Below are positions 14,250-64,000 of a stretch of 64,000 nt of DNA, in pieces. The position numbers and the translations under genes were made by a program. The notes beneath the pieces are model-generated. The model had not been told where the DNA came from, searched no databases, and saw only the letters and a list, made by a program, of their open reading frames with translations. The DNA comes from an uncultured Bacteroidales bacterium. GTDB lineage: Bacteria; Bacteroidota; Bacteroidia; Bacteroidales; Bacteroidaceae. How positions within the stretch are numbered: the stretch's first letter is position 1; each line of letters starts with the position of its first letter. The stretch covers positions 1-64,000 of the forward strand of contig CADCIP010000005.1 in the NCBI GenBank assembly GCA_902801485.1, given 5' to 3'.

Positions 14250-14342
14250 CAAACTCTTATCTATTATCTATTATCTGTTAGAATCTCAGCCCTCATACTT
14301 CAGCCTTCAAACTTCATCCATCAGCCCTCATACTTCAGCCTT
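14250..14342. repeat. Regular 7 bp word array
   Basis: A run of heptads in perfect 7-base phase: CTATTAT-type units first, then units such as CAGCCCT, CATACTT and CAGCCTT alternating eight times. On the minus strand these read as G-A-N-N-N-N-N units, the same class as the arrays at 51.4, 53.7, 58.7 kb and inside the two four-helix-bundle genes. Confidence 0.7.
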
Positions 14343-14347
14343 CTTTG

Positions 14348-14540
14348 ACCACGGATGACTCAGATAGAACGGATAGTTTTTTTATATTGATGACAATCTT
14401 GGACAAGATTGCTTTGTTATGAACAAAGGTTGATATTGTTTGGAGGTATCTTGAAAGTACACTTTCAGAAGTACCTCAAAATAATCTCAACTTATCATCA
14501 ATATAAAAACATCTGTGTAAATCTGCTAAATCCGTGTTCG
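14348..14540. repeat. Structured element, family A copy 1 (long stem, two hairpins)
   Basis: The outer arms TTTTTATATTGATGA (14379-14393) and its exact complement (14495-14509) give a 15 bp stem. Inside are hairpin 1, CAATCTTG/CAAGATTG (14394-14411), the conserved linker CTTTGTTATGAACAAAGG, and hairpin 2 of about 16 bp centred at 14460. Outside the stem lie 9 bp words in inverted order, ending in ATCCGTGTTCG (14530-14540). Copy 2 is at 40584-40793 with different stem sequences but the same pairing. Confidence 0.7.
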
Positions 14541-14554
14541 ACTGTAAACAGTAA

Positions 14555-14851
14555 ATCGTGGGTTTTTCCTTCCTATAGTATTAACCTGATGTAAGGCAGG
14601 TGCAGTAATAAAAGAATTTGAGCTTATAAGCTTGTTTATATAGAACAAATTGTTTGGATTGCTGTGAAAGTCTGATAAGACTTATACTATCGGAAGGGGT
14701 TCTTGTGGTTTTTGTCTAAATATTTTCAGTTTTTTTTGTCTTTTTCGATGTTTTCGGAATTAAAGAGTAATCCGTGCAAATCCGTGAGATCCGCGTTCGA
14801 CTGTAAACCGTAAACGGTAAACGGTAAACTCATTAAACAGACTTTCAGCTC
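14555..14851 (+). repeat. Structured element, family B copy 3
   Basis: CCTTCC plus ATAGTAT (~14570-14583) pairs with ATACTAT plus GGAAGG (~14682-14698), enclosing CCTGATGTAAGGCAGG and AAGTCTGATAAGACTT hairpins. It is followed by G-rich GGGGTTCTTGTGGTTTTTG, the TTTTTCGATGTTTTCGGAAT block and 9 bp words ending in ATCCGCGTTCG (14789-14799). No gene. Confidence 0.6.
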
Positions 14852-15910
14852 TCAACTTTTCAGCGATGCGAGATACTCCTCATGCAGGTGGTAGAATTTC
14901 TTCATAAAGATAATATATGCAACAGCCAATAAAAGACCAGAGCCAATCAGATAGATCCAATGTGCAAGTAGCGTATTGGGACACAAATAAATGAAACCAA
15001 GTGATATAATAAGTTGCGTTATCATATAGATAAACGTAACCGTCACATGTCCCATTTTCAGCTCATTACTCATCAACTGGAATGCATGCTTACGATGTGC
15101 CTGTCCCAGATTCTCATGCAGCATAATACGATGGAATATCGTCAAGCTACCATCAACACCATACATAAGGAAAAATACGATGTAGGTTACGTCCTTCGTC
15201 ACAAACATCAGCCTGCCCAGCGCAAACAGAATGATAAAAGCAATACCAATACTACCCACATCACCCGCAAAACACTTTGCTTTTCCTTTAGGTCTGAAAT
15301 TGAAGATGCTGAACACCAGCACCCCGATGATAGCCACCATCAGGTACGATTCTTCAATAAAACCTGAAACTTGGAACTTGGAACTTGAATCCAGCAATGC
15401 GATAGGAACGAGCATTGCCAGCGCATACCCTGCTGTTATGCCGTTGATGCCGTCCATAAAGTTGATAATATTTGTAGCACCCACACAGAAGAACAGCGCC
15501 ACAATTACGATGAGTACTTGCAAATACCAACCCTGAACCTTGAACCCTGAACCTTGAACTAGAATGATTGACCAAAACATCAGCAGGATGCTGAAGATTT
15601 GGACTATCATTCTTAATGAGTCCGGCAAAGAATGAACATCATCCCAGAAACTCACCGTGCTGATCATGATGAGTCCAACCAGGAACGGCAAATACTCTTG
15701 GAACCTGAAACTTGGATCTTGAAACATTTGCCATCCAAACCACACCAACATCGAGATGGCAAATATCACTCCGCCGCCCCTCAGCACGATGGTCGAGTGA
15801 CTACTTCTCTCGTTCGGTTTATCGATAATATTACACTTATCCGCAATCTTAAAATACGCCAGTTCTGCAACAAATAGCAGCACTGCAATAATTGTATATG
15901 TTAACCACAT
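14852..15910 (-). CDS. Polyprenyl-phosphate sugar-1-phosphate transferase (WecA/WbpL-like)
   Basis: A 352-residue multi-membrane protein of the MraY/WecA family. Diagnostic motifs are N-I-I-N-F-M-D-G-I-N-G, A-G-D-V-G-S-I-G-I-A-F and the cytosolic H-R-K-H-A-F-Q. It transfers a HexNAc-1-phosphate onto undecaprenyl phosphate and so starts the repeat unit. Oddly, three loops are encoded by 7 bp word arrays: near 15358-15395, 15528-15560 and 15700-15730 (peptides like V-Q-G-S-G-F-K-V-Q-G and F-Q-D-P-S-F-R-F-Q). These are extra residues compared with the family and lie between membrane helices. The frame stays open, so the enzyme is probably functional. Confidence 0.85.
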   Translation of the reverse strand: MWLTYTIIAVLLFVAELAYFKIADKCNIIDKPNERSSHSTIVLRGGGVIFAISMLVWFGWQMFQDPSFRFQEYLPFLVGLIMISTVSFWDDVHSLPDSLRMIVQIFSILLMFWSIILVQGSGFKVQGWYLQVLIVIVALFFCVGATNIINFMDGINGITAGYALAMLVPIALLDSSSKFQVSGFIEESYLMVAIIGVLVFSIFNFRPKGKAKCFAGDVGSIGIAFIILFALGRLMFVTKDVTYIVFFLMYGVDGSLTIFHRIMLHENLGQAHRKHAFQLMSNELKMGHVTVTFIYMITQLIISLGFIYLCPNTLLAHWIYLIGSGLLLAVAYIIFMKKFYHLHEEYLASLKS

Positions 15911-16017
15911 ATCTCTCTAGTATTATTTCTTTTTACTGTTATTTCACACATCATTCAACTATAACGTTTCAACACCAATTATCCCATCTCTCACTTTTGT
16001 TATCAAATACCATTTCA

Positions 16018-17775
16018 TTACTTGCTAAGGGGACTCAAATCTTCTACAGTCTGGGTTTCGTTAGGACGGGCATTATACTTACGCATTAGTGCAATAAGTT
16101 CTTTCCACTTACCATCCCGCTGCGACTGCTCTTTATTGCGCATGCAATACAGGTAGAGTGGTTGCATACGTACCCGCTCAACACGCTGGCTTATGACCTC
16201 GTTTTCTGCCGACTTCTGTGCTTCATCAAGAAGTACGAAAGCTTTACGCAGAAAATCATCATTATATATCTTATCGTTCTCACGGATGAAAAGGCCAAAA
16301 TGCACTTCTGGCATAACTAATGATTGGCACAAATGGTAGTAATCCAAGACGCGTGATGCAGCTTTTCCGTAATAACCGTCTATGAATATATTAACCAAGG
16401 AGTCCGTACACTGATTGGGGTTCCACAACAACTGATTAACCGTCCAAGACTTCATTTCTTCAAATTCCCCACCGAGTGACTGGTATGCCGCCTCCTCAAA
16501 AACGCCTATGGCTTTGTTGGCACTAAATGTACGGATATTAGGAGCTAATACCTGAAAGTTAGGCCAAGGTGCTAAAAACTGTTTAAAATCCACTATATAG
16601 TCCCAAATGAATAAATGTGGAGCAGTGGAAGCCCAGCCTTGCAAATCATTCATAAACTCCACATTTTGTGGGCAATCTGCTGTTAGTGAATGGGCAAAAC
16701 AACATTCAATACTGCATAAACGTATTACTACATTCTCCTGCGGCACAATACCCACGGGTGGTTTCCTCGAATATTGATAAGCGAAAGTCCCAACATATTT
16801 ATCTGGAAATTCTTCTCGGACCGCATCCGCAACTTGGTTTACAAACCACACGATAAGACCAGAGTGCCCTCCATATTGATTTTCAATCTCCTTGCACTTT
16901 TCACATTGGCAGAAATTTTTATTATCATTTTGCGATAAGTCGTATATGCGATATCCTGGATTCTTACGTATCACATTTAAGAGTCGATCCTTACATATCT
17001 CAAGTACTTCGGAATTTGATAGGCATAACTGTTCATTCTTAGAGAGTCGCTTTCCATCACGCAAACAGAAATATTCAGGGTGTCTTTGATAAAACTCGCT
17101 GACGGGTATCAACTGCCCCATAGTGTGGCACCCCCAATAGCCATCCATATTTCCATATTCATTGGTTAACGGCCCACGCATATTTTCCTTGACATGGGCG
17201 CTCCACACTGGTTGATTACGCGTTACAAAATAATAATTATAACGGAATTTGAGAGCAGGACTTTCACTATGATAGAGTCTTGCGAATCGCCACTTTAAGC
17301 ACTTCGGTACTACGGTACAATCAGGAGCTAACCAATGAACACCTAACTCACGCTCCAAAAAAGAAAAGACACCATACATAGTGCCCCTCTGCTTTCCGCC
17401 CCATATTAATAAATCATGACCTACACTACGATATGTAAAACTCTCATCATCTTCTACAGGACGGCTCTCTCCAGTTAGGTTTGCCACCTTTGATGAATAG
17501 CCCACAAAGATATGTTTACCAGGGGAATCTCCATTTGAAATAATCGGCAGAAGTACTCCGCTTATTTGAAAAAGATAATCCTGAAGCTCTTGCGCCGCCG
17601 TATGTTCCGAAACCGAGGCATCAGTAGCAACAACTATCTGGTATTGGCTTTTACCATTTTTAAATAGCCAATTAGAAGCAACTGCACTCGTTCCAATAAA
17701 AATGGTCACTGCTGACAGCAACACCCGTACTGTTATTATATATTTCGTTCCCATCGTAATTATACAGAAAAACAT
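16018..17775 (-). CDS. Exported DUF4838-type glycosidase-like protein
   Basis: A 585-residue protein with an N-terminal signal segment (about 8-30, V-R-V-L-L-S-A-V-T-I-F-I-G). The body resembles DUF4838, a family related to alpha-glucuronidase-type N-terminal and TIM-barrel regions: A-A-Q-E-L-Q-D-Y-L, G-T-M-Y-G-V-F-S-F-L-E-R-E-L-G-V and W-L-A-P-D near residues 130-155. A C-x-C-x-x-C (F-C-Q-C-E-K-C) lies in the middle. The likely first codon is the internal ATG of M-G-T-K-Y-I-I, giving a cleaner signal. A periplasmic glycan-processing role in this polysaccharide locus is plausible, substrate unknown. Confidence 0.65.
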   Translation of the reverse strand: MFFCIITMGTKYIITVRVLLSAVTIFIGTSAVASNWLFKNGKSQYQIVVATDASVSEHTAAQELQDYLFQISGVLLPIISNGDSPGKHIFVGYSSKVANLTGESRPVEDDESFTYRSVGHDLLIWGGKQRGTMYGVFSFLERELGVHWLAPDCTVVPKCLKWRFARLYHSESPALKFRYNYYFVTRNQPVWSAHVKENMRGPLTNEYGNMDGYWGCHTMGQLIPVSEFYQRHPEYFCLRDGKRLSKNEQLCLSNSEVLEICKDRLLNVIRKNPGYRIYDLSQNDNKNFCQCEKCKEIENQYGGHSGLIVWFVNQVADAVREEFPDKYVGTFAYQYSRKPPVGIVPQENVVIRLCSIECCFAHSLTADCPQNVEFMNDLQGWASTAPHLFIWDYIVDFKQFLAPWPNFQVLAPNIRTFSANKAIGVFEEAAYQSLGGEFEEMKSWTVNQLLWNPNQCTDSLVNIFIDGYYGKAASRVLDYYHLCQSLVMPEVHFGLFIRENDKIYNDDFLRKAFVLLDEAQKSAENEVISQRVERVRMQPLYLYCMRNKEQSQRDGKWKELIALMRKYNARPNETQTVEDLSPLSK

Positions 17776-17784
17776 CCGTAATAA

Positions 17785-18909
17785 TTATATCGACGCAGGC
17801 TTTAGAATATGGTTCCAAACTCCACTACAAAAGGCACTCCACATGCTTTCGTCATAGCACAATTCATGTTTCCAACCATTTGCCTTCCATCGGCGATACT
17901 TAAATAAAATTCTCGGAATCATTAAGCGAGGTTCTTCTCCTGAAAATTCGGGCTGCATAATATCGTTCAAAACCCGATCTTTAATGTTGGAGTTGGACAG
18001 AATGTTTGGAAACATTATAGAATCAAAACCTAATTCCTCCACACAAATTGCATTGATGCAGTTAAAGAACTCTCTCATGTGGAATTCATCCAACAAGTCC
18101 AATAGCCAAGGCCAGTCCACGTTCTTTCCATGCTTTTCCACGAAAAAGGCCCAGTCCAATACCTGCCTCAGCGTAACATATTCTGAAGCAAAGTGGCTGA
18201 CTAGGTGCTTCATCAAGAACAAAGCGTGCAAGTTTTCACTTGGCAGATATACCTTCTCCCCATTTACTTCAACCGAGTGAGAATCATCTTTACCCAGTTC
18301 CTTTAAAACCCTTTCAATCTTAATACTTGACTTATGGTGATGCACATTCACAAAGTCATAGTGGTTCTCCACCATGAAGCTTCCCCAGTAGAAAACTGTA
18401 TGATGGTGATGGCTCCTATCTATCTTAATCTTTTTAAACTTCTGGCCTTCATGAACTGACTCTAAACCCTCATCTCTAAACTCTAAACTCTCTATAAGCG
18501 CATCTGCTTCCTTCTGTTTTCCAAATTGCCAAATATCAATATCACCACAAGGTCTATGTTTCGGGTTAGGCCAGTTCAACGAACAGGCATAGCCCTTTAA
18601 AACCATCATTTTATAACCATGTTGATTATACCATCCTGCTAAAGAACTGATAGCCTTCTCATACTGTGCATATCGCTGCTCATAGTTTTGAAACACTTCA
18701 CCAATCCATTGTAAAAGTTCCATTTTTGGAGGTTTCATGCTTTCGGGCAAACATCCTATGCCATCAAGTATTATAGCAGAAAGACCTTGCAAATCAGCAA
18801 GAGCCTTCAAAGCATCCCAGTCAACCTTATTTGTGAGTTCTGTGGTTTTTGTGTGACCAATTCCCAACCTTACCAGCAACAAAAAGGATTTGTGTGTATT
18901 CGTAATCAT
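17785..18909 (-). CDS. Nucleotidyltransferase-family protein (NTP_transf_5)
   Basis: A 374-residue protein of the uncharacterised nucleotidyltransferase group often found in polysaccharide loci. The catalytic-type G-D-I-D-I-W motif occurs near 130-135 after V-L-K-G-Y-A. Histidine-rich segments (S-H-H-H-H-T and V-N-V-H-H-H-K) follow. A 7 bp array of CTCTAAA units at about 18462-18495 is built into the coding region, giving the E-S-L-E-F-R-D-E-G-L-E-S segment. The start region also overlaps 9 bp words and an ATCTGTGTTCG end motif at 18908-18918, so the true start may be the later one before the V-D-W-D segment or the original start may have been replaced. Substrate unknown. Confidence 0.65.
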   Translation of the reverse strand: MITNTHKSFLLLVRLGIGHTKTTELTNKVDWDALKALADLQGLSAIILDGIGCLPESMKPPKMELLQWIGEVFQNYEQRYAQYEKAISSLAGWYNQHGYKMMVLKGYACSLNWPNPKHRPCGDIDIWQFGKQKEADALIESLEFRDEGLESVHEGQKFKKIKIDRSHHHHTVFYWGSFMVENHYDFVNVHHHKSSIKIERVLKELGKDDSHSVEVNGEKVYLPSENLHALFLMKHLVSHFASEYVTLRQVLDWAFFVEKHGKNVDWPWLLDLLDEFHMREFFNCINAICVEELGFDSIMFPNILSNSNIKDRVLNDIMQPEFSGEEPRLMIPRILFKYRRWKANGWKHELCYDESMWSAFCSGVWNHILKPASI

Positions 18910-18922
18910 CTGTGTTCGAATA

Positions 18923-19819
18923 TCATATTTTATAATTTGTTAGCACATCCAGTGGTTCCCAGCCAAGTTCATTGCGAGCCTTCTCATTGCTGAATGTGAG
19001 CGATTTGGTCATTTTTTCCAACTTGTACGTATTGATTGGCGCTTTATCACCAAGCAGATCACCCGCCTTAGCCATGCACCAAGCCACCCAGTATGGAATA
19101 CTGATGGGCTTATGCTTACCAAGTTGTTTGGCAACAGATATAGAAATCTCCCCAAAAGATGGTTGTCGTGTATCGCAAACATTATATATTCCGCCTTTCT
19201 CCTCAAGTAAAGGCACAAGATGAGCAATATCCTCTGCCATCAGAATACTTTTGACAACCTTACCCCCAGCAATATTCATATAGTATCCTTTTTTGATACC
19301 TTTCACCATAGCACCAAGATTGCCTGGAGCATTCTTGCCCGCAAGCAGTGAAGGACGAAGAATGCCAAGAACAACACCATTCTTAGAGCACCATTCAGAC
19401 AGATACTTCTCTGCCATTATCTTACTCTTAGCATACGGAGTCTCACCATTCAAAGGATGTTCTTCTGTGATTAGGTCACCATATTCGCAACCATACACCG
19501 CTACCGTACTGATGAATATTAATGCCTTTGGAAGTCCAGTTTTCTCCAAAGCCTGACATAGATTTACTGTTCCTTGATAGTTCACATCAAAAAACACCTG
19601 CGCCTCTGCTGTAGTCTTGGGGACAGTGTGAGCCTTTCCTGCCGCATGAAGCACCACATCATAATGTGTATTAATTGGTGGTACTTCCTTGGCCATATTT
19701 ATCTTGATGTCATCATCATCGGTCAAACCAATGGTGTGGACATCGTAAGTCTTTTCCAGTATGGGACGAATATTGTATCCTAAGAACCCGGACGCCCCTG
19801 TAAATAACAGTTTCTCCAT
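18923..19819 (-). CDS. NAD-dependent sugar epimerase/dehydratase (4-keto-sugar reductase-like)
   Basis: A 298-residue short-chain dehydrogenase of the extended class. It has the Rossmann motif G-A-S-G-F-L-G at 7-13 and the catalytic Y-A-K-S-K near 130, preceded by S-T-V-A-V-Y-G. Enzymes of this size encoded next to a WbpL-like transferase usually reduce a UDP-4-keto sugar to give the first sugar of the repeat unit. It overlaps the stop of the upstream glycosyltransferase gene by one base, so translation is probably coupled. Exact product is not determined. Confidence 0.75.
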   Translation of the reverse strand: MEKLLFTGASGFLGYNIRPILEKTYDVHTIGLTDDDDIKINMAKEVPPINTHYDVVLHAAGKAHTVPKTTAEAQVFFDVNYQGTVNLCQALEKTGLPKALIFISTVAVYGCEYGDLITEEHPLNGETPYAKSKIMAEKYLSEWCSKNGVVLGILRPSLLAGKNAPGNLGAMVKGIKKGYYMNIAGGKVVKSILMAEDIAHLVPLLEEKGGIYNVCDTRQPSFGEISISVAKQLGKHKPISIPYWVAWCMAKAGDLLGDKAPINTYKLEKMTKSLTFSNEKARNELGWEPLDVLTNYKI

Positions 19820-21006
19820 TATATAGCTTCTACAAATTTGTTCAAAATGATATCTTTAGCATACTCCTTCTCAGCCTCCTTGCGGGCTCTCTGTCCCATT
19901 TCTTTAAACTCAGCACATTTCTCAGATGAAAGAGAAGAGACGAACTTAATAATTCCTTCCCTATCTGACGGTTCAAAGACATAGCCAATATTCTTCTCCT
20001 TTACAAGAAGTCCAATCTCGCTATTCGGTTCCCCTATAAACAAGATTGCCTTTCCAGCCGCCATGATATTATACGTTTTGGAAGGAACTCCAAGACCAAA
20101 CATTCCTTCAGTAAGCGTCACGAGTGCTAAATCGCAACTATTAATCACCTCACTCTGTTTGGAACGAAGATATGCTCCATGGAACACAACATTATTCATT
20201 CCATTTCTCTGCACATACTCCTTCAAGCTGTTCTCCTCTGCACCAGTACCCCAGAGATGGAACTCCAGCTCATTATTTCCTACAGCCTTTATATATTCAA
20301 CCATTGACTGCAGCCCCTGCACTCTTCCTATGTTTCCAGCATACTCCAGTACGACTTTGTCAGGATTCATTGACTGTTCCATCGGAGAAACAATATCAAG
20401 ATCCGCCCAGTTCTCAATGACAATAGTTTTTGGTTTGTGCTCAAAACGTCCAACCTTTTGTTCTAGGACCTGCTTCATATCCCTTCCTATTGCTATCAAC
20501 TGGTCTGCCCTACTATAAGCTTTATCAAAAAGATTCTTCAAGAATTGATAAGCCCAAGAAGGCAATTTCAGGCCTGCAGGCTTTGTATTCTCGGGGAACA
20601 CATCATGCACTAGTATATTAAGTTCAAAAACTCGTCTCTTCCTCAATCTTGAAATCAATGCAACCACTGGAGCCGGATTTGTAACCAATAGAACCTTATC
20701 ACCTTCCTTGATGCTCCTCTTAGCTGACTGATATAGCTGCCTGCTGATTACTGCAAAACGCATGGCCTTACCAAAGAAGGTGTTCTTGTCTAAATCTACA
20801 CCTTTAACATGAGTGACTTCAATCTCTGAATTGAGTACAAATTTATTGTTTGGATCTGTTTTCTTACGTTTATCGTATATTTCTGGCCCACAAATCACCC
20901 TGACTTCATATTTTGAAGCCATCACATTGGCTATCTCCCCCAGGATGAAAGCTGTTGATGTTTCATCTGGGGGGAATAGTTCAGAGATAATCCATAAAGT
21001 ATTCAT
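19819..21006 (-). CDS. Glycosyltransferase family 4
   Basis: About 395 residues from the ATG at 21006. That start is preferred over an upstream one because it overlaps the upstream gene's stop (TGATG) and begins M-N-T-L-W-I-I-S-E-L-F-P-P-D, a normal GT4 start. GT-B features: V-L-E-Y-A-G-N-I-G-R-V-Q-G in the C-terminal domain, and L-G-V-P-S-K-T-Y-N-I-M-A-A-G-K in place of the E-x-x-x-x-x-x-E loop, typical of the WbuB-like subgroup. It transfers a sugar from a nucleotide donor to the lipid-linked repeat unit in the cytosol; donor unknown. Confidence 0.8.
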   Translation of the reverse strand: MNTLWIISELFPPDETSTAFILGEIANVMASKYEVRVICGPEIYDKRKKTDPNNKFVLNSEIEVTHVKGVDLDKNTFFGKAMRFAVISRQLYQSAKRSIKEGDKVLLVTNPAPVVALISRLRKRRVFELNILVHDVFPENTKPAGLKLPSWAYQFLKNLFDKAYSRADQLIAIGRDMKQVLEQKVGRFEHKPKTIVIENWADLDIVSPMEQSMNPDKVVLEYAGNIGRVQGLQSMVEYIKAVGNNELEFHLWGTGAEENSLKEYVQRNGMNNVVFHGAYLRSKQSEVINSCDLALVTLTEGMFGLGVPSKTYNIMAAGKAILFIGEPNSEIGLLVKEKNIGYVFEPSDREGIIKFVSSLSSEKCAEFKEMGQRARKEAEKEYAKDIILNKFVEAI

Positions 21007-22205: not shown

Positions 22206-22215
22206 TGTATAAATG

Positions 22216-23559: not shown

Positions 23560-23561
23560 AT

Positions 23562-24641: not shown

Positions 24642-24653
24642 ATTTATAAATAG

Positions 24654-44491: not shown

Positions 44492-45580
44492 TTACACTAG
44501 GTTGGGGATGCCATTCAATTCATTCTGGATATACTCCAGTGATGCTATCTTTTCCTTCGTTTCCTCCAAATTCAGACGTTTTGTATTGTTACTATTAAAC
44601 TCTTCAATGGTAGCACGCTTTACATCACCCTCTTTGAAGTACTTGTCATAGTTCAAGTCGCGATTGTCTGCAGGTACTGCATAGAAATTTCCCATATCAA
44701 TAGCCTTTGCTGCCTCTTCCTTGGTGAGCAGGGTCTCGTACATCTTCTCACCGTGACGGATACCGATAACCCGAATTTCGGGTTTTGTTTCAGGTTTCAG
44801 GGTTTCAGGATTCAGGTCACGACCATACTGGTGCTTGAAGAGTTCTACCACAGCTTCTGCCTGGGTCTGAATGGTGCAGGCAGGTGCCTTTTGAACAAGG
44901 ATGTCACCATTCTTGCCATTTTCAAAGGCAAAGAGTACCAAATCCACCGCCTCTTCGAGAGACATAATGAAGCGGGTCATATTAGGTTCTGTCAATGTAA
45001 TGGGATTACCCTTGCGAATCTGGTCAATCCAAAGAGGTATAACGGAACCACGTGAGCACATCACATTACCATAACGAGTGCAACAAATCTTGGTATCCCC
45101 ACTCAGACGGCTCTTGGCCACAGCAATTTTCTCTTCAATAGCCTTGGTGATACCCATAGCATTGATAGGATATGCTGCCTTATCGGTGCTCAAGCAAATC
45201 ACGCACTTAACACCTGCCTCAATGGCAGCATCCAGGGTGTTATCAGTACCAATCACATTGGTCTTCACAGCCTCCATAGGGAAGAACTCACAACTGGGCA
45301 CCTGCTTCAAGGCAGCAGCATGGAACACATAATCCACACCTTGCATAGCATAATGTAACGTCGATCTATTGCGAACATCACCAATATAGAATTTTATCTT
45401 GTTAGCGACTTCCGGCATACGTGCCTGGAAGTCGTGACGCATATCATCCTGTTTCTTCTCATCGCGGCTAAAAATACGGATTTCTCCAATATCGGTTCTT
45501 AGGAATCTATTCAGAACGGCATTACCAAAACTACCAGTACCTCCCGTAATGAGGAGGACTTTGTCCTTAAATACTGACAT
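44492..45580 (-). CDS. fnlA: UDP-GlcNAc C4,6-dehydratase / C5-epimerase
   Basis: A 362-residue CapD-like dehydratase: L-I-T-G-G-T-G-S-F-G near 10-19 and the M-G-I-T-K catalytic segment in place of YxxxK, as in FnlA/WbjB/PseB. It starts the UDP-L-FucNAc pathway. The segment R-D-L-N-P-E-T-L-K-P-E-T-K-P-E near residue 260 is encoded by GTTTCAG-type 7 bp words (44775-44817) and is extra to the family. A fragment coding its last 26 residues lies separately at 58591-58671. Confidence 0.85.
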   Translation of the reverse strand: MSVFKDKVLLITGGTGSFGNAVLNRFLRTDIGEIRIFSRDEKKQDDMRHDFQARMPEVANKIKFYIGDVRNRSTLHYAMQGVDYVFHAAALKQVPSCEFFPMEAVKTNVIGTDNTLDAAIEAGVKCVICLSTDKAAYPINAMGITKAIEEKIAVAKSRLSGDTKICCTRYGNVMCSRGSVIPLWIDQIRKGNPITLTEPNMTRFIMSLEEAVDLVLFAFENGKNGDILVQKAPACTIQTQAEAVVELFKHQYGRDLNPETLKPETKPEIRVIGIRHGEKMYETLLTKEEAAKAIDMGNFYAVPADNRDLNYDKYFKEGDVKRATIEEFNSNNTKRLNLEETKEKIASLEYIQNELNGIPNLV

Positions 45581-45688: not shown

Positions 45689-45914
45689 TGTGTTTGTTTT
45701 TATAATATGTTTGTTTTTTTGTTTTATTTAGTCTATTCAGTTGCGCTAACACTTCCGGCTATCAAGAGATGCGGGCTGCGGAATAGTTGTGGGACATTTA
45801 TGGTTCACGGTTAATGGTTCATGGTTAATGGTTTTATAACCACGAATTCCTTACCTTTATCGTCAACGCTTATGGACCAAGCGTTAGTTCTGTTGAATCA
45901 GTAGCCTCAAATAT
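45689..45914. repeat. Gene-free gap with GGTTAAT heptads
   Basis: An A/T-rich run of AAACAAA-like words (45690-45730) upstream of the dehydrogenase stub, then a 7 bp array TGGTTCA/TGGTTAA at 45800-45834, same class as 975-1098. No gene seen. Confidence 0.55.
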
Positions 45915-51432: not shown

Positions 51433-51560
51433 ATGATGGAAGATGGCTGAGAGATGATGGCTGAGGGATGAAGGAAGAGGATTCCGAGGGAAGATGTCAG
51501 ATGTCAGATGGAAGATGTCAGATGGAAGATGTCAGATGGAAGATGTGATTCTTTTAGCTT
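51420..51560. repeat. 7 bp word array (GANNNNN class)
   Basis: Regular heptads beginning GA, for example GATGTCA and GATGGAA alternating several times between 51490 and 51545. Same class as the arrays in and around the four-helix-bundle genes. The rest of the 51132-51668 gap holds the transposase remnant and a GC-rich palindromic part near 51560-51620; no gene. Confidence 0.65.
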
Positions 51561-53619: not shown

Positions 53620-53817
53620 TCCGCAGATGAAGCAGATTCCGCAGAGTTAATTTAATTAGCTTAGTAGCTTAATTGGTTAGTAGTTTAATAGATTAATAGG
53701 CCATGAGTCAAGAGCCTAGAGGCAAGGGGCGAGAGTATTCCGATGTAAGATGTAAGATGTCAGAGGGAAGAAGGAAGAGTTTTATGAAGGAAGAAGGAAG
53801 AAGTAAGATGGAAGACG
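53620..53817. repeat. Word arrays downstream of a four-helix-bundle gene
   Basis: CAGATTCCG-type nonamers (53623-53657), TTAATAG/TTAGTAG words, then GANNNNN heptads (53740-53815) that run up to the last codon of the four-helix-bundle gene. The same heptad order follows the related gene at 58710. Confidence 0.6.
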
Positions 53818-54303
53818 TTACTTTCCGTCCGACTCATCGTTTATCTTCTTGCACCTTGTCACCAATATCTTCACCAACTCTTCACAGTCAGCGTAAATTG
53901 ATTTATACTGTGTATCGTTCAAATAACTGTTTCGGTGAAGCAGATCTATCCAATAGAGGGACTCCCTAGCTTCCTTCAACGCTATATATGATTTACTCTT
54001 AAAGTCTGCTTTGCTTATGGCGTTACACGCCTCAGCATTGTTTGCTCCTATACTCGTTCCTGCTCTTAAAAGTTGATTGCAGAGATTTGAGACTGACTGC
54101 AAATAAACTGGAACAGCCGCTACGCTGATGTCTGATGTCTGATGTAAGAAGGAAGATGTTTGTTTTCCTTTCTTTTGAATCTTTGACTTCTTATAATTCT
54201 CATGAGCAGCTACTGCCTGTGCCAGCAAGAAATCATTGAGCTTGATTATCCTATCGCCAAATGCTAGGCATTTCTCCTGAATTGCGTCGGAAATCTCACT
54301 CAT
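53818..54303 (-). CDS. Four-helix-bundle protein (S23/IVS-type), copy 2, with repeat-coded loop
   Basis: A 161-residue protein with the family motifs G-T-S-I-G-A-N-N-A-E-A and A-L-K-E-A-R-E-S-L-Y-W. The region between helix 1 and helix 2 (about residues 35-62) is partly encoded by GATGTCT/GAAGGAA heptads (54125-54163), giving S-S-F-L-H-Q-T-S-D-I-S. The paralogue at 58710-59141 has a different heptad-coded peptide at the same place. Outside that loop the two are about 80 percent identical by eye. Role unknown. Confidence 0.82.
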   Translation of the reverse strand: MSEISDAIQEKCLAFGDRIIKLNDFLLAQAVAAHENYKKSKIQKKGKQTSSFLHQTSDISVAAVPVYLQSVSNLCNQLLRAGTSIGANNAEACNAISKADFKSKSYIALKEARESLYWIDLLHRNSYLNDTQYKSIYADCEELVKILVTRCKKINDESDGK

Positions 54304-54338: not shown

Positions 54339-54420
54339 CGAACACGGATTAAACGGATTTCTGTATAATTGGGGTGTCTTGTATGCTTTTATTCTCACAG
54401 TTATTTCCTCAACGAACTAA
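54339..54420. repeat. CGAACACGGAT end motif and 9 bp words
   Basis: CGAACACGGAT at 54339-54349 followed by an ACGGATT word, in the gap between the four-helix-bundle gene and the DUF4276 gene. One of the recurring element ends of this window. Confidence 0.5.
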
Positions 54421-56228: not shown

Positions 56229-56405
56229 ATTTTTACCTCCGTTTCTACTTTTTTCAAGTACAAATATCTATCTGATATAGATGACAGGGGACAGTCTTGA
56301 AGTGTCACATTCGTCCCTTATAGTAGGGACTTCAAGAATGTGCGAGAGACCTTTCTCCCCCATCTGCGGATTCACCTGCGCGTAAGGGCAGTGCCCGCTA
56401 TTTTA

Positions 56406-58391: not shown

Positions 58392-58590
58392 ATCAGTATT
58401 TGTTTAGTTCTCTAGCACAGCGATCGCGACGCCTTTGGCACTTTGGATAATCCAGCCGGTGGCGGAGTGGAACGGAGCCACGGGCTGACACCTCTCTTCC
58501 TTAGCGGAAGGCTCTGGCGACCGTAGGGAGCCTGTGCCTGGAGCAACCAACCTGCGGTTGAAGTTTCAAGATTCAAGTTTCAGGATTCAA
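58392..58590. repeat. Palindromic intergenic repeat and GTTTCAAG heptads
   Basis: Contains TTAGCGGAAGGCTC at ~58501, repeated at ~60603, with other small palindromes, and ends in TTCAAGA/TTCAGGA heptads (58563-58590). No gene. Confidence 0.5.
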
Positions 58591-58671
58591 CTAAACTAGA
58601 TTTGGAATGCCGTTCAGCTCATTCTGGATGTACTGGAGGCTGGCAATCTTCTCTTTAGTTTCTTCCAATCG
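58591..58671 (-). pseudogene. C-terminal fragment of an fnlA-like gene
   Basis: On the minus strand this codes L-E-E-T-K-E-K-I-A-S-L-Q-Y-I-Q-N-E-L-N-G and then I-P-N-L-V before a stop, the last residues of fnlA (44492-45580) with one change. Both sides are heptad arrays: GTTTCAAG words on the left and GATGTAA/GATGGAA words on the right. It shows that a second fnlA copy, or its end, was once here. Confidence 0.8.
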
Positions 58672-58709
58672 ATGTAAGATGGAAGAAGGAAGAAGTAAGA
58701 TGGAAGACG

Positions 58710-59141
58710 TTACTTTCCGTCCGACTCATCGTTTATCTTCTTGCATCTTGTTACTAATATCTTCACCAACTCTTCACAGTCCTCATAAATACTCTGATAC
58801 TGCCTTTCGTCTATATAATTGTTACGTTTTAATAATTCTATCCAATAAAGGCTTTCTCTGGCTTCCTTCAAAGCAATAAAGCTTTTACTCTTAAAGTCTG
58901 CTTTGCTTATGGCGTTACATGCTTCTGCATCATTCGCTCCGATGCTGGTGCCTGAACGAAGCAACTGGTTACAGAGGGTAGCGATTGCCTGTAAGTGTAC
59001 TGGCACTCGTGATGTGCGATGTCTGAAGGCTGAGGGCTGATGTTTATTTGCAGCCTGTGCCAGCAAGAAATCATTGAGTTTAATTATGCGGTCGCCAAAG
59101 GCGAGACATTTCTCCTGTATAGCATCACTTATCTCGGACAT
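58710..59141 (-). CDS. Four-helix-bundle protein (S23/IVS-type), copy 3, with repeat-coded loop
   Basis: A 143-residue paralogue of 53818-54303. The same motifs are present (G-T-S-I-G-A-N-D-A-E-A, A-L-K-E-A-R-E-S-L-Y-W). The loop after helix 1 is shorter and is coded by GATGTGC/GAAGGCT heptads (59009-59042), giving K-H-Q-P-S-A-F-R-H-R-T-S. It follows the small gene at 59145-59351 by 3 bp and may be part of that operon. Confidence 0.82.
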   Translation of the reverse strand: MSEISDAIQEKCLAFGDRIIKLNDFLLAQAANKHQPSAFRHRTSRVPVHLQAIATLCNQLLRSGTSIGANDAEACNAISKADFKSKSFIALKEARESLYWIELLKRNNYIDERQYQSIYEDCEELVKILVTRCKKINDESDGK

Positions 59142-59144
59142 TAT

Positions 59145-59351
59145 CTAATCTATAGCATTCGAAAACACTGTATAAGCAACGGGAGCATTACTTTCCTCAA
59201 TAAAACAAGAGTTGCTATCATAGCTTCGTAAATCCTGGTCACTAAAAACAACGCCCTCGTTATAAGGCTGATTATCTATTACAGAATTCTCTATAATCTG
59301 TATAAACTCTTCTGAGTAACCTAAACTCGATAATATACTTGTAACCGACAT
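59145..59351 (-). CDS. Small acidic protein between protease and four-helix-bundle genes
   Basis: A 68-residue acidic protein, start S-V-T-S-I-L-S-S-L-G-Y-S-E-E-F-I. It begins 2 bp after the protease gene, so cotranslation is likely. The short length and position suggest a regulator or substrate of the protease; no family recognised. Confidence 0.5.
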   Translation of the reverse strand: MSVTSILSSLGYSEEFIQIIENSVIDNQPYNEGVVFSDQDLRSYDSNSCFIEESNAPVAYTVFSNAID

Positions 59352-59353
59352 GA

Positions 59354-60427
59354 CTATTTGGGAGGATTAAAATTTCTAATTACACAGTAATTCTCAGATA
59401 TAAAGTACTTTACAGCATTAGTATTTTCAAAGAACCAGTAGATCAACGCCCACATTCTTCTCATTGCCCTATCAAGTCCTGTAATACTTTCAGGATGGAC
59501 TATTTTTAGTCTACATACTTCCCAAGCAACTTCTCTACTTATTGCATGCCCATGACTTTTCCACTTAGAGTGAGCGCAGAGGTCTTCTGCAATCTGTTTA
59601 GCACGATTAGTTTTTTCTTCGGGTGTTACAGGTGTTTCACAATCAGAATGGAAGTGCCAATCTCTGAACTTAAAATGCTCTAAATAATCTGATACAAGAT
59701 TTATCGAATAATTACTTGCACTTATAGCATTCCCCAATTCCTTTGGATCAATATTTTTTAGAATCGTAATATCCGCCCAAGAAGGTTGTTGGCCTTTTTT
59801 CAACTGTTCCTCGCCTCTCTGTCTTATGTCTTCTACAAGTGTCATTATTGCTTGGGCTGGGACATAGTTTCCACTTTTTGACGGGGCTTGAGGGTCAATT
59901 GGCCCTATGTAAGCGTCTTTCCCCATTATTATCTCGTTACCAGACAGAGAAAAAATGGTACCAGCACTCATACACTTGTTGAGAAGTATAAAACCTATGT
60001 TATCAAATCTTGGTCTCAGCTTGTTTACAAAGCGTGCCACTTGTTGAGCTGAGCCACCAGGCGTAACAAGAACTATATCAATATCTTTTACTTCCGGAGG
60101 TACTCTGTTTATCAATTCGGAAAACGGCAAATCATCCGAGTCGTCAATGGAAATAGAAACAGGAACAGGCTTTACCACATTAGCTATATAACAAAGAACA
60201 GGTCGTTTGCGTATATCAGAGATCTCTTTTATGCTCCTCCTAATCTCCTCAACTACGTTTACCCCTGAATATTGATAATGAAGTAGACTCTCAAATTCAT
60301 ATCCATCAACCATAACATCGAGGAAAGAATCTGAGACAGGAATAGCGGGGACCTTTGTTTTAACAACAGGTTTTGGCTTCTGAGGAATCATATTATAACC
60401 ATGCTTGTTTCTACTCATATCATGCAT
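59354..60427 (-). CDS. ClpP-fold serine protease (SDH_sah family)
   Basis: A 357-residue protein. The ClpP/crotonase-type core has V-T-P-G-G-S-A near 121-127 (oxyanion Gly), the probable nucleophile S154 in K-C-M-S-A-G-T-I-F and I-G-P-I-D-P-Q near 174-180, the pattern of the serine dehydrogenase-proteinase/SppA-related group. No signal peptide or transmembrane anchor is seen, so a cytosolic enzyme. It opens a three-gene run. Members of this group appear in defence loci as effectors; target not known. Confidence 0.75.
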   Translation of the reverse strand: MHDMSRNKHGYNMIPQKPKPVVKTKVPAIPVSDSFLDVMVDGYEFESLLHYQYSGVNVVEEIRRSIKEISDIRKRPVLCYIANVVKPVPVSISIDDSDDLPFSELINRVPPEVKDIDIVLVTPGGSAQQVARFVNKLRPRFDNIGFILLNKCMSAGTIFSLSGNEIIMGKDAYIGPIDPQAPSKSGNYVPAQAIMTLVEDIRQRGEEQLKKGQQPSWADITILKNIDPKELGNAISASNYSINLVSDYLEHFKFRDWHFHSDCETPVTPEEKTNRAKQIAEDLCAHSKWKSHGHAISREVAWEVCRLKIVHPESITGLDRAMRRMWALIYWFFENTNAVKYFISENYCVIRNFNPPK

Positions 60428-60855
60428 TTTTGTATATTATCTCATTAAACTCGCACTCGTGCGGCTTTGCCGCTCTAAAAGTCTCACAGCTGGAAGCAAG
60501 CTTGCGACATTGACATATTGTCTTCCTCCTTCGCACCTCGGCCATCCTTGAGCAAGCTCAAATGACGCTCGGTTTGGCGTCGGTTGGGCTGTATAGCATT
60601 CTTTAGCGGAAGGCTCTTTTAAGCTTTGCTTTTCCTCCTTCGCACCTCGGCAATTGAAGCAAGCTTCATTGCGCTCGGTTTGGCGTCGGTTGTCGTGACT
60701 TGCACTGTAAATGTGCCTGGAGCGGTTGCTCATCGGCCATTCATGGTGAGTTTGTCGCGCTCGGCTCTGCCGCTTCGCTAGTCGAAGAACCATCGGCCAC
60801 CTTATCTTATAATTACCTTATTCTATTCTATCTCGCCCATCGGCCCCTAATAGTT
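60428..60855. repeat. Palindromic tandem repeat region, no gene
   Basis: Two ~60 bp direct copies, 60525-60586 and 60634-60692, both starting CCTCCTTCGCACCTCGGC and ending CGCTCGGTTTGGCGTCGG, with different inner hairpins: TTGAGC/GCTCAA in one and TGAAGC/GCTTCA in the other. A long minus-strand frame crosses the area but is R/Q/S-rich repeat translation. A GCTTCGCTAGTCGAAGAA palindrome at ~60771 is shared with ~3268. Confidence 0.65.
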
Positions 60856-62076
60856 TTAAGTTTGACCTACGGTCGAGCCTGAGTTCCCAATACATCTTCC
60901 CAACTCTTCTGCCGGTGGTAGCACGCGAGTCAGGTCTTCGGGGGCATTCTTGCCCAGCTGGAAGGTGGCCACACCCATCGGCTTGGTATAATCACTGATG
61001 GCCACTTCCACCACCATACGGTCAAATTCGCGGCACAAGACCAGCCCTATAGGCGGGTTCTCGTGAGGCTTACGCACCTGACGATCCAGCGCAGAAAGGT
61101 AGAAACTGAGCTGTCCCAGATGCGCGGGTTGGAAACGCGTGTCTTTCAGCTCAACCGCCACTAGAGCATTCAATTGGCGATTGAAAAAGAGCAGATCTAT
61201 AAACTTTTCTTCGTCGCCAACTATCACCCTGTACTGTTCACGCAGAAATATAAAGTCCTGACCAAATCGCAGGATGAAGTCGCGTATGTTGTCCACTATC
61301 TTCCGGTTGAGGACGGGCTCGTTACGGTCTTCCACCTCGGCATACAAGTCCTCGGCATTGATGAAGTCAAGAAGGTACTCCTCCTTGAACGCCTTCATCG
61401 TCTGCACCGCCAACCGCTGATTGGGGATAGTTTCCGAGAAGTTGTTGGGCAAATGGCCGCAATCCTTATAGAGGTCGGCCTTCAGATTGTCTCGAAGTAC
61501 ATATTTGTTCCAGCAATGCAAGGCACACTGACGGATATAGAACGCACGCCCTTCCAGAGTCTTCTCCTTACGCAGAATCATCACATGATGAGTGAATGGG
61601 ACACGCAGAAAATCAGTCCAGTCCAATTCGTCGGCCACTGGCTGACGAATTTCACTCAACATCATACGTTCGTCTATCTTGATTCCACTCTGTGATTGAG
61701 ACGTTGCCGCGGGCGCAGGCAAATCGTCGGCCATTGGCTGACGATTTACCAGCGGCTGCCACTGCTCGTAGAAGGTGCGCATATCCTTCAGGCTCGTCTC
61801 GCTGTATCCTTTCAGACCCGGCATCTCCTTCTGCAGCTGACCACTGATCTGCGTCAGTGCACCCGTTCCCCAAAAGCCCTTTCGGGAATTCTCGGAGATA
61901 TAGCGACCAATACCGTAGTAGAGCGACAAAACCTCGCTGTTCACCACGTGGAGTGCCCGCGCCTGACTGCGCTGGATGGCCTCCTTGATGGCTTGCACAG
62001 CAGCAGCATATTTCATATCGAACGACGCCATGTCCGCCATCTGTGCCTTGTGGTCTTTATCTGTTAGTTGTGTCAT
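60856..62076 (-). CDS. PDDEXK nuclease of the DUF1016/YhcG family
   Basis: A 406-residue protein. The N-terminal DUF1016 part has Y-Y-G-I-G-R-Y-I-S-E-N, W-G-T-G-A-L-T-Q-I-S and Y-S-E-T-S-L-K-D-M-R-T-F-Y-E. The C-terminal PD-(D/E)xK nuclease part has F-I-D-L-L-F-F and V-A-V-E-L-K. Residues about 113-152 carry a duplicated phrase (R-Q-P-M-A-D-D-L and R-Q-P-V-A-D-E-L) encoded by repeated GGCCATTGGCTGACGA-like DNA at ~61640 and ~61730, an expansion relative to the family. The role of the family is uncertain; it is common in accessory islands. Confidence 0.82.
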   Translation of the reverse strand: MTQLTDKDHKAQMADMASFDMKYAAAVQAIKEAIQRSQARALHVVNSEVLSLYYGIGRYISENSRKGFWGTGALTQISGQLQKEMPGLKGYSETSLKDMRTFYEQWQPLVNRQPMADDLPAPAATSQSQSGIKIDERMMLSEIRQPVADELDWTDFLRVPFTHHVMILRKEKTLEGRAFYIRQCALHCWNKYVLRDNLKADLYKDCGHLPNNFSETIPNQRLAVQTMKAFKEEYLLDFINAEDLYAEVEDRNEPVLNRKIVDNIRDFILRFGQDFIFLREQYRVIVGDEEKFIDLLFFNRQLNALVAVELKDTRFQPAHLGQLSFYLSALDRQVRKPHENPPIGLVLCREFDRMVVEVAISDYTKPMGVATFQLGKNAPEDLTRVLPPAEELGRCIGNSGSTVGQT

Positions 62077-62106
62077 TGTCTGTTTGTTTATTTAAGGCGT
62101 GATTTC

Positions 62107-62131
62107 AACTGGTGACAATTTGTTACCAGTT
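62107..62131. promoter_or_regulatory. 25 bp palindrome upstream of the DUF1016 gene
   Basis: AACTGGT (62107-62113) and ACCAGTT (62125-62131) flank ACAA and TTGT, making a near-perfect palindrome in the 89 bp gap before the nuclease gene. It could be an operator or the terminator of the gene at 62166. Confidence 0.45.
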
Positions 62132-62165
62132 CAGTTGGTTTCGTTTTGTAACCGACTCTTTCCCA

Positions 62166-62537
62166 TCACTTCTTAAAGTCTTTTCCATCAAACTCGGTCA
62201 GCAGTCTATAGAGTTGTTCCTTCTTCCATTCCTTGGAGCGATGCTGGCGGAGAACCTTCCTCAGCTGCCAAACGAAATGACGGTCTTCCATCACTCGCTT
62301 GTTTGTACTCTCGAACATCGACCCCAAATAGACCACTTTCTCCGACTTGATTGTCATCAGTTTATCGTCGAAGGCCCCGGGTGTACCGAAGAAGTCGTTA
62401 TATATATCGTCATAAAAGAACACATGCAACTCGTCCAGCACCGTGTACGTCTCTACCCGCCCGTTAAACATGCCCCCGACAATCTCCGTATCGGGCGCCA
62501 CCTTTGAGAGTTGCTCTATAAGTTCCTTGGCGGTCAT
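62166..62537 (-). CDS. Hypothetical protein (unrecognised)
   Basis: About 123 residues from M-T-A-K-E-L-I-E-Q-L (62537); the longer frame begins in TTGACAA-type heptads and is rejected. It has an N-terminal helix, a strand-rich G-G-M-F-N-G-R-V-E-T-Y-T-V middle and a basic helical C-terminus (Q-L-R-K-V-L-R-Q-H-R-S). No signal peptide. It lies between the ORF6N fragment and the DUF1016 nuclease; function unknown. Confidence 0.5.
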   Translation of the reverse strand: MTAKELIEQLSKVAPDTEIVGGMFNGRVETYTVLDELHVFFYDDIYNDFFGTPGAFDDKLMTIKSEKVVYLGSMFESTNKRVMEDRHFVWQLRKVLRQHRSKEWKKEQLYRLLTEFDGKDFKK

Positions 62538-62554
62538 TGTTGTTTGTTTTTCCC

Positions 62555-62610
62555 GGGTGAGGGAATATAGGATATAGGATAGATGACAGTTGACAATTGA
62601 CAATTGACAG
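62555..62610. repeat. 7 bp word array (TTGACAA / ATAGGAT)
   Basis: Heptads in phase: two ATAGGAT units, then AGTTGAC and AATTGAC units. They separate the gene at 62166 from the ORF6N fragment. The same word class is inside the GDP-fucose synthase gene. Confidence 0.65.
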
Positions 62611-63042
62611 TTATTTCTTGCCTGGATTCTCCTTGCGCACTCGCTTTACGGTATGCTTTAGTTTGCCAATGAAGAAGTTTATCTCCAAAGAAGACTCGGT
62701 CTCCTGAGTTTGCAAGTCAGGCATGACAATGTCGGAGAGGACTTCGCCAAAGTGTTTCATCTTGGAAGCCTGCTTTTGCTTATCTGTTTCAGAATGTAGT
62801 TCAAGAAGCTCGCGCTTAAGTTCACGCACCTTGGCAAAGGTCTCGATGATAGCGAAGGTTATATTCCTTGCTCGTTCTCCTTTCAGAACCGTAGCGAGCA
62901 TATATAGCCCACGTTCGGTGAAGACTTTGGTGGGTTTGCGGTTGTTAGGAGACACATTTGATATCAAAATTTTTGACCGCAAATCTTGTAACTCATTGGA
63001 AGTCAGCTGAGGTCTGATGTATGATGTAGGATGTTGGTTCAA
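62611..63042 (-). CDS. ORF6N/phage-antirepressor-like protein, N-terminus replaced
   Basis: A 143-residue frame whose residues about 12-75 match the second half of the ORF6N domain: L-T-S-N-E-L-Q-D-L-R-S, then K-V-F-T-E-R-G-L-Y-M-L-A-T-V-L and a helical tail. The first half of the domain (the D-x-A-x-x-Y-G-V part) is missing; in its place the first codons derive from GATGTAG-like heptads next to the end of the GDP-fucose synthase gene. Likely a truncated, inactive gene. Confidence 0.65.
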   Translation of the reverse strand: MNQHPTSYIRPQLTSNELQDLRSKILISNVSPNNRKPTKVFTERGLYMLATVLKGERARNITFAIIETFAKVRELKRELLELHSETDKQKQASKMKHFGEVLSDIVMPDLQTQETESSLEINFFIGKLKHTVKRVRKENPGKK

Positions 63043-63060
63043 GACTGGATACTTGGGATG

Positions 63061-64000
63061 TCAGTCCTGCAAAGAGGCTTTGTACCAGTCGAAAAGGCGT
63101 TGGACTCCTTCTCCGATTTCTATCTTGTGGGTCCAGCCAAGGCGGTGGAGTTTCTCTACATCAATGAGCTTGCGCATGGTGCCATCGGGCTTGCTGGCGT
63201 CAAACTCCACTTTGCCTTCAAAGCCTACTGCCTTGACAACCAACTCGGAGAGCTGACGGATGGTGAGTTCCTTGCCTGTGCCGACATTGATGTGACAGTT
63301 GCGAATCTCTCCCAAACTGGGGATGTAGCCGCCACGACCGGCACTGTGGTTCCTGTCCACCGCACCATCGGTGCTGGCACCATAATGTACGCTGGAGTAT
63401 TTCTCTATGCCTATGATGTCGCTGAAGTTGACATTCAGGAGCACATGGACGGAGGCATCTGCCATATCCTCGCTCCAGAGGAACTCGCGAAGGGGGGTGC
63501 CGGTGCCCCAGAGGACAACCCGGTTATCATAGATTCCGTATTTGGCTAAAACGCTCAAAGCGTTTTCTCGTTGAGAGTTGACAGTTGAGAGTTGAGAGTC
63601 AGTGGAGAGTGTAGAGTTTTCTGTAAGGCCTTCGCCGGTGACGCCTTCAACGGGGCGTTTGTTGAGGTCGGTGGCTATCTTGTCCCAGGCACCATCGTGG
63701 ATGAGTTTGGCGAGATAGACCTTGCGCATCATGGCGGGCATGACATGGCTGTTCTCCAGATGGAAGTTGTCGTTGGGGCCATACAAGTTCGTAGGCATCA
63801 CGGCTATATAATTGGTGCCGTACTGCAGGTTGTAGCTCTCGCACATCTTCAGACCGGCAATCTTGGCAATGGCATACTCCTCGTTGGTATATTCCAGCGG
63901 ACTGGTCAGCAGGCAGTCTTCCTTCATGGGCTGCGGTGCGTTCTTGGGATAGATGCAGGTGCTGCCCAGGAAGAGGAGTTTCTTTACGCCATGGGCGTAT
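63061..64000 (-). CDS. fcl: GDP-L-fucose synthase (5' end outside window), with repeat-coded insert
   Basis: The frame is open to the window edge. It reads F-L-G-S-T-C-I-Y-P near the edge, then Y-A-I-A-K with the catalytic Tyr and Lys, and P-T-N-L-Y-G-P-N-D-N-F-H, the GMER/WcaG signature. It converts GDP-4-keto-6-deoxy-mannose to GDP-L-fucose. The stretch at about 63573-63625 is made of TTGAGAG/TTGACAG heptads and codes S-T-L-S-T-D-S-Q-L-S-T-V-N-S-Q, which the family does not have. It probably belongs to a further sugar-nucleotide block outside the window. Confidence 0.85.
   Translation of the reverse strand, partial: YAHGVKKLLFLGSTCIYPKNAPQPMKEDCLLTSPLEYTNEEYAIAKIAGLKMCESYNLQYGTNYIAVMPTNLYGPNDNFHLENSHVMPAMMRKVYLAKLIHDGAWDKIATDLNKRPVEGVTGEGLTENSTLSTDSQLSTVNSQRENALSVLAKYGIYDNRVVLWGTGTPLREFLWSEDMADASVHVLLNVNFSDIIGIEKYSSVHYGASTDGAVDRNHSAGRGGYIPSLGEIRNCHINVGTGKELTIRQLSELVVKAVGFEGKVEFDASKPDGTMRKLIDVEKLHRLGWTHKIEIGEGVQRLFDWYKASLQD

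Follow-up and report, generated by a model that had tools for sequence, protein, structure and literature searches.

Tandem repeats with a seven-nucleotide unit are known from several bacterial lineages as short tandemly repeated repetitive sequences (STRRs) or long simple sequence repeats (LSSRs), and here we describe arrays of degenerate heptad units that lie between and inside the genes of an uncultured Bacteroidales bacterium. The analysis centers on a 64,000-nucleotide stretch of contig 5 of its assembly (CADCIP010000005.1 of GCA_902801485.1), which we call the window. According to the sources named below, the known repeats of cyanobacteria, Xanthomonas, Burkholderia and Beggiatoaceae are dispersed tandem 7-nt units, mainly intergenic, with some in open reading frames (ORFs). 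Arrays of TAACTGA are found in Beggiatoaceae, cyanobacteria and five Bacteroidetes, and some of them lie inside ORFs (MacGregor 2015, PMC4679880). The same article credits Mrazek 2007 with the finding that heptamers are the most frequent long repeats and with the idea of a polymerase contact, and it reports the view of Mrazek et al. that such repeats arise by local slippage. G-rich heptads occur in Xanthomonas and Nostoc, and the Nostoc heptad is 68% intergenic, so that up to about one third may be intragenic (PMC4692102). A coding heptad tract is described for neuO of Escherichia coli K1, carried by prophage CUS-3, wherein 3 to 53 copies of one word switch a single phage-borne gene and the frame is preserved if the number of copies is a multiple of 3 (PMC13001214).

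The arrays described here share with the STRR and LSSR repeats the dispersed tandem 7-nt unit, the mainly intergenic position and the occurrence in some ORFs. They differ in that dozens of related words coexist, whereas each known repeat has one dominant word in those reports, and in that ORFs contain 39 of the 109 arrays, some of them in the middle of housekeeping enzymes, with loop contents that differ between close species. With neuO they share a heptad repeat in a coding region and a frame that is kept when copies are divisible by 3; unlike the neuO tract, they are degenerate, several are stable in length, and they are spread over many genes. Rickettsia palindromic elements, which are palindromic repeats of about 100 to 150 bp that insert in frame into numerous protein genes where this is tolerated, offer a further likeness in their in-frame presence in many unrelated genes and their absence from most orthologues. 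In contrast to those elements, the present arrays are direct 7-bp repeats with changing words and do not form palindromes.

A first-pass annotation of the window, made from its letters alone, had reported the arrays and stated that it knew of no description of arrays entering many genes in this way. That statement was too strong, because PMC4679880, PMC4692102 and PMC13001214 report coding heptads; heptamer repeats in ORFs were known earlier from Beggiatoaceae, Nostoc and neuO, and the present case is a variant of a known repeat class. A literature search for heptanucleotide or heptamer repeats in Bacteroidetes returned only PMC4679880, and a search for such arrays in Prevotella, on a base that is thin in subscription papers, found none.

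A seven-nucleotide period in the genome and its relatives

A segment was scored as periodic if at least 20 of 24 bases matched the base 7 positions away, a threshold chosen in this analysis. The window holds 11 such lag-7 segments, together with four at lag 14, two at lag 21 and one at lag 28; the remaining lags from 4 to 30 gave no segment, and 50 order-2 Markov versions of the window yielded 0 lag-7 segments, which upholds the proposed excess over randomized sequence. The 20/24 test is passed by four of the eight coding sites named in the first-pass annotation, namely those at 15358 and 15528 in a WecA-like gene, that in four-helix-bundle gene 1 and that in a GDP-fucose synthase gene. When the sites were scored individually, equally good runs at control lags arose at 3e-5 to 1.2e-4 per position for seven of the eight, and at 1.3e-3 per position for the WecA-like site at 15700–15730, which is therefore weak on its own.

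The period extends well beyond the window. We sampled 864 kb of the same genome (85 contigs, 3.61 Mb, 85% complete), comprising the window and 40 stretches of 20 kb; these were 36 contig starts and four inner stretches and not a random draw. The sample contains 109 lag-7 segments and at most seven for any lag from 4 to 35 that is not divisible by 7. With ORFs called by a simple longest-ORF rule and coding defined as inside an ORF of at least 100 codons, 39 of the 109 segments are fully inside ORFs, 24 overlap them partly, and 46 are wholly intergenic although called ORFs make up 90% of the sample. The tandem 7-nt units thus occur above chance, and they are dispersed with a bias to non-coding DNA, both of which are features of heptanucleotide STRR and LSSR repeats.

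Twenty genus-mates (378 kb) gave 49 lag-7 segments against a maximum of 10 at other lags, with 10 of the 49 inside ORFs. Four stretches from other genera of the family (80 kb) gave 0 lag-7 segments, and 15 stretches from outside the family (265 kb) gave seven against a maximum of one; the 80 loci of mixed phyla fetched for fnlA gave 15 against at most six at other lags from 4 to 22. Exact (CTCTCAA)3 has 37 overlapping matches in the own genome and, with the own genome counted, is present in 26 of 201 genomes of a family sample, across 11 of 30 genera, and in 2 of 395 genomes of a phylum sample. These counts stand without a reversed-pattern control, which is uninformative because CTCTCAA reversed is a rotation of itself. 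L260, which had been selected for holding the pattern, is outside the counts of this section. The first array pattern tried, GAACYTKGAACYTKGAAC, gave 0 matches. Repeats of the STRR/LSSR class are very common in this rumen Prevotella-like genus and strongly enriched between genes. Single heptad arrays were also seen on contigs labeled Clostridia/Oscillospiraceae (L038, 5237–5274; L064, 1750–1780), which may reflect misbinning or a wider spread.

A restricted and connected set of heptad words

If rotation and strand are ignored, the 109 arrays use 38 of 1172 heptad classes, whereas 500 draws of random genomic heptads gave a mean of 103 classes and at least 95 in every case. Thirty-nine arrays belong to the three commonest classes (at most 9 in the null), and all 38 classes have a one-substitution neighbor within the set (null mean 56%, maximum 80%). 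CGA and GCA are avoided and GTT and TTNA are favored, with a G+C content that is also lower than background. Words shift stepwise along single arrays, and higher-order periods of 14, 21 and 28 bp are present. The pooled genus-mates use 36 classes, of which 10 are common to the own genome, so the vocabulary differs between species.

Arrays in loops of housekeeping enzymes

Pfam searches of 20 array-bearing ORFs gave hits for 17, and the named proteins include RsgA, ValS, IleS, CobT, AcrB, an acyl-CoA dehydrogenase, GH38 and GH95 proteins, a SASA-family esterase and a serpin. Two adjacent UvrD-like/PD-(D/E)XK proteins, which we label AddAB-like, are also among them. On alignment with solved homologues, the array residues of IleS and RsgA fall opposite gaps and those of CobT do so partly, whereas the ValS array replaces other residues.

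The IleS loop, defined as the segment between AQFKV and YILAWTTTPWTL, was compared in 30 species (29 fetched and the own, of 137 genomes with a match). Its content is a CTCTCAA array in five, an AATGTTC array in one, an ATAATTC array in one, a palindromic element in four, nine-base repeats in five and plain sequence in 14. A tree built without the loop requires nine changes of content, and L314, which has heptads, and L316, which has a palindrome, group together with a support of 100/95. All five CTCTCAA-type loops are 17 residues long and differ by point changes, and in the third unit of the ATAATTC array CAA stands where TAA would be in frame. The same loop is thus taken by heptad arrays in some species and by a palindromic element in related ones. 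The palindromes are in-frame C-rich/G-rich mini-elements, seen in the IleS loop of L316, L333, L336 and L340 and at site 1 of the WecA-like protein of L082, where relatives have heptad loops. The nine-base repeats resemble AATCTGAAT and are found in L326, L327, L329, L330 and L337, which form one related group.

The ValS array is present only in the own genome and in none of 27 informative orthologues; 29 were fetched, and L288, whose match ends at residue 797, and L309, whose alignment row was out of frame, were dropped. It replaces about 15 ordinary residues of L282, a relative with 96% identity. The first-pass annotation had treated repeat-coded residues as insertions, with three units giving seven extra residues. 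The arithmetic is right and the residues are lineage-specific by comparison with orthologues, but some arrays replace the original loop, as in ValS, wherein the net change in length is not a multiple of 21. The alignments show that array residues are lineage-specific loop inserts or replacements rather than ancestral sequence, and the test for the same residues at the same sites in orthologues points the same way.

Further comparisons used two 20-kb stretches and eight related genomes and were confined to alignments that span an array; for AcrB, GH95 and acyl-CoA dehydrogenase, at most five alignments per array were considered. Among the genomes listed, the array keeps its length and changes by substitution in AcrB (four genomes) and GH95 (three). 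The acyl-CoA dehydrogenase array is absent in four of four listed relatives, although a short AAAAGTG repeat occupies the site in L385. In the SASA esterase, the GTTGAGA/GTTTAGA units of the own genome correspond to (GTTGAAA)4 in L350, with no difference in length. Differences of exactly 7, 14 and 7 nt between related species were seen at three arrays that lie at ORF ends or outside gene bodies.

Two other proteins are rich in heptad-coded sequence. At L275:13229–13330, three consecutive arrays of different words encode about 35 to 40 residues of a SASA-family esterase. The 226-residue protein at L272:16611–17291 has no Pfam hit, and GCCAACA/GCCAAGA/GTCGAGA heptads encode most of its middle linker (QQPRVESQ-like); this linker is rearranged in the related species L383 and L392 and almost unchanged in L390.

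Orientation of coding arrays

For arrays inside ORFs whose words have exactly one stop-free strand, the coding strand is the stop-free one in 31 cases and not in two (p = 1.3e-7). Words with any stop-free strand make up 37 of 39 arrays inside ORFs and 27 of 46 intergenic arrays (p = 1e-4), and among 28 arrays of Pfam-named genes the word is stop-free as read on the coding strand in 22 and as read on the other strand in four. This bias shows a selection filter and not an insertion preference.

Array-bearing genes of the window

All eight coding coordinates of the first-pass annotation fall in open frames of the genes it named, and Pfam backs these genes (Glycos_transf_4, NTP_transf_5, Polysacc_synt_2, two 23S_rRNA_IVP four-helix bundles and Epimerase). 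Its gene list proved too narrow, given the arrays in RsgA, ValS, IleS, CobT, AcrB and glycosidases; array-bearing genes are not confined to polysaccharide loci and include housekeeping enzymes. Its claim of a strict 7-base phase is not exact, as the fnlA array contains one 8-base step and the GDP-fucose synthase array a phase break. Orthologues were aligned mostly as the best-scoring of those fetched (8 of 29 loci for the WecA-like protein, 8 of 19 for NTP_transf_5 and 18 of 29 for GDP-fucose synthase), with 23 of 80 fetched loci for fnlA and, for the four-helix bundles, six loci from those fetched besides the window's own; the absence of an array from an alignment row was judged by eye. The genes and arrays of this section are on the minus strand.

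The WecA-like glycosyl-1-phosphate transferase (14852–15910) has an MraY/DPAGT1-like fold and carries three arrays. GTTCCAA/GTTTCAG units at 15358–15395 encode residues 172–185, at the end of predicted helix 156–175 and in the loop to helix 187–204; GGTTCAA/GGTTCAG units at 15528–15560 encode residues 117–128 in an inter-helix loop; and the weak array at 15700–15730 encodes residues 61–71 at a helix end and in an inter-helix loop. In an AlphaFold2 model (mean predicted local distance difference test score of 72, from a nine-row alignment), which matches MraY and DPAGT1 in fold, the three arrays map to the ends of consecutive helices or to the stretches between those ends. Between the array loops come the loops with the invariant DD, DGING-like and FAGDVGS residues, and the helix count together with knowledge of the family would place the array loops on the face opposite the active site. 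Of the eight aligned orthologues, seven lack arrays and L082 has its own at sites 2 and 3, with words like those of the window; at site 1 it has the palindromic insert instead of heptads.

In the NTP_transf_5 nucleotidyltransferase (17785–18909), a GTTTAGA array at 18459–18495 encodes residues 139–151 and is absent from eight of eight aligned orthologues of the genus. Its third unit, which would read as an in-frame TAG, is altered.

The FnlA-like UDP-GlcNAc 4,6-dehydratase/5-epimerase (44492–45580) scores below the NCBIfam cut-off, and its nearest relatives are in rumen Prevotella/Bacteroidales metagenome genomes and Xylanibacter ruminicola. Of 23 aligned orthologues, 19 lack the extension that the CTGAAAC array at 44775–44817 (residues 255–269) forms; L025 carries an independent array there, built from related words, and L001, L005 and L006 have short extensions that lack heptads. 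In the L025 copy (8001–9095), the array is locally in frame and the frame is broken elsewhere, which in a metagenome-assembled genome may be an error.

Two paralogous four-helix-bundle proteins of the 23S rRNA IVP family, at 53818–54303 and 58710–59141, carry arrays N-terminal of the Pfam match, with ACATCAG/ACATCTT units at 54125–54163 in the former and CATCAGC/TTCAGAC units at 59009–59042 in the latter. Among six orthologues, L112 and L117 resemble the window, L114–L116 have the words on the opposite strand, and L113 has none. Finally, the GDP-L-fucose synthase-like ORF (63061–63927), which was called from an internal ATG and whose open frame continues beyond the window end, carries CTCTCAA words at 63568–63625 (residues 101–120). 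Among 18 aligned orthologues, 15 have no heptads; the site is occupied by CTCTCAA words in L142 and by CATCAGC/CATCTTA words in L143 and L144. Polysaccharide synthesis is the role of several of these genes (WecA-like, FnlA-like and GDP-fucose synthase).

Arrays between genes and at gene ends

Words related to the coding ones also occupy intergenic gaps, as the first-pass annotation had noted and the arrays of the window bear out. A composite block at 14243–14343 has several word families in series, and a GTAAACG array lies at 14797–14831. Higher-order periods are found at 45795–45835 (GGTTCAC/GGTTAAT, 14 bp) and at 51434–51551 (GATGTCA/GATGGAA, 14 and 28 bp). One block (53696–53821) extends to the stop codon of four-helix-bundle gene 1, and another (58670–58707) adjoins that of gene 2; in this pair of paralogous genes, similar heptad arrays lie at each stop codon (53784–53830 and 58670–58720). 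TTGACAA words occupy the ends of two short ORFs (62565–62614), and CATACAT/CATCAGA words are at the N-terminal end of an ORF6N-domain ORF (63007–63037, minus strand). Rfam and tRNA scans of the window gave no matches.

Discussion

We consider it probable, with some reserve, that degenerate heptanucleotide repeats repeatedly enter or replace permissive protein loops as frame-neutral blocks and are then filtered by selection. The observations behind this proposal are the excess of period 7, the restricted and mutationally connected words, the differences between orthologues, the kept frame with its stop-free orientation, and the constant length of several arrays. By the proposed mechanism, an array would arrive in one step as a block whose net change is a multiple of 3, and it might be copied from other arrays during repair or template switching, or be made by slippage of several units at once. 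Selection would then retain only open-frame blocks in tolerant loops, and no host function would be needed. Arrays outside gene bodies do also differ by whole 7-bp units. Block arrival is favored over growth by single units because one 7-nt step would frameshift ileS or valS, both of which we take to be essential. In our reading, coding arrays behave as tolerated loop passengers and not as switches. We are more doubtful of a stronger version of the proposal, tentatively entertained, in which these bacteria have a standing process that takes copies of array DNA from other parts of the genome, places them in protein loops in single frame-neutral events, and exchanges one repeat class for another at the same loop.

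Several results weigh against block arrival. A search for the donor of the ValS array found none, as the junction word recurs just twice elsewhere in the genome and similarity does not extend along the flanks. A search for dispersed composite repeats gave only 14 long rows that combine array DNA with other sequence, of which some are local duplications, so that block copying was not seen directly. In the SASA esterase of L350, the bases just upstream of the array also differ, with 80-odd identical nt downstream, and the length of the array region differs in L342 and L343. The orientation counts are partly circular, because array-bearing ORFs are countable only if open and broken genes go uncounted. 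Indels that are a multiple of 7 make up 4 of 22 in or near arrays versus 1 of 32 elsewhere, which is not significant (Fisher p = 0.15). Two further results favor local replication slippage in a 7-nt register, whereby arrays would grow in place from a seed by single units and only frame-keeping numbers would survive. The fnlA gene of L001 holds a near-duplicate CTGAACC/TGAAATT that may be a local slippage seed, and the GDP-fucose synthase array of L143 is longer than that of L144 by exactly 42 nt, or six units, in frame. The differences of exactly 7, 14 and 7 nt described above, the higher-order periods of 14, 21 and 28 bp and the stepwise shift of words within one array agree with slippage as well. 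Nevertheless, a one-unit step in an essential single-copy gene is a frameshift, a restricted vocabulary that differs between species is unexpected from independent local seeds, the SASA esterase shows a whole-word change at equal length, and the ValS and IleS loops resemble replacement. We regard slippage as a possible but rather unlikely account of the arrays.

The presence of the WecA-like, FnlA-like and GDP-fucose synthase genes in the window, and the precedent that a coding heptad tract can switch a gene such as neuO, could suggest that the arrays are contingency loci for phase variation of surface polysaccharide genes. However, arrays also occur in IleS, ValS, RsgA and other proteins, and their length is constant across species in IleS (five) and, among the genomes listed, in AcrB and GH95. 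The units are degenerate, no internal stop was found among the GDP-fucose synthase matches listed, and the between-species comparisons revealed no out-of-frame array allele. The genes for IleS and ValS, taken to be essential, and for RsgA do not match the neuO type, whose target gene can be switched off. Phase variation is unlikely given the nearly exclusive use of the stop-free orientation by coding arrays and the unchanged length of several of them from species to species, and we give the contingency-locus explanation very little credence. An equally improbable account is that arrays are placed by selection because the peptides they encode (for example NSQLSTL), or the words as DNA, bind something. 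Recurrent words, with RTT and GTTNA over-represented and CGA and GCA nearly absent, would fit such a function, though G+C is also below background; against it, the content of one loop varies among unrelated words, opposite orientations, palindromes and nothing, and there is no sign of a shared peptide or site. An integron-like reading of the GTT-rich words was also weighed and set aside.

Array loops are also a trap for annotation, since they resemble sequencing error or misprediction and yet are real. The genus offers many comparisons of close species in conserved single-copy enzymes, from which one may learn which blocks enter, in which orientation, and at what rate they are replaced. They bring a long-standing question within direct reach of a test, namely why a 7-nt unit is so frequent among bacterial repeats and whether slippage or copying spreads them. 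To our knowledge, repetitive intergenic DNA has rarely been seen to feed the evolution of bacterial proteins. If the stronger version with copying from elsewhere in the genome is true, the intergenic repeats of these bacteria would continually supply new segments to proteins, essential enzymes included.

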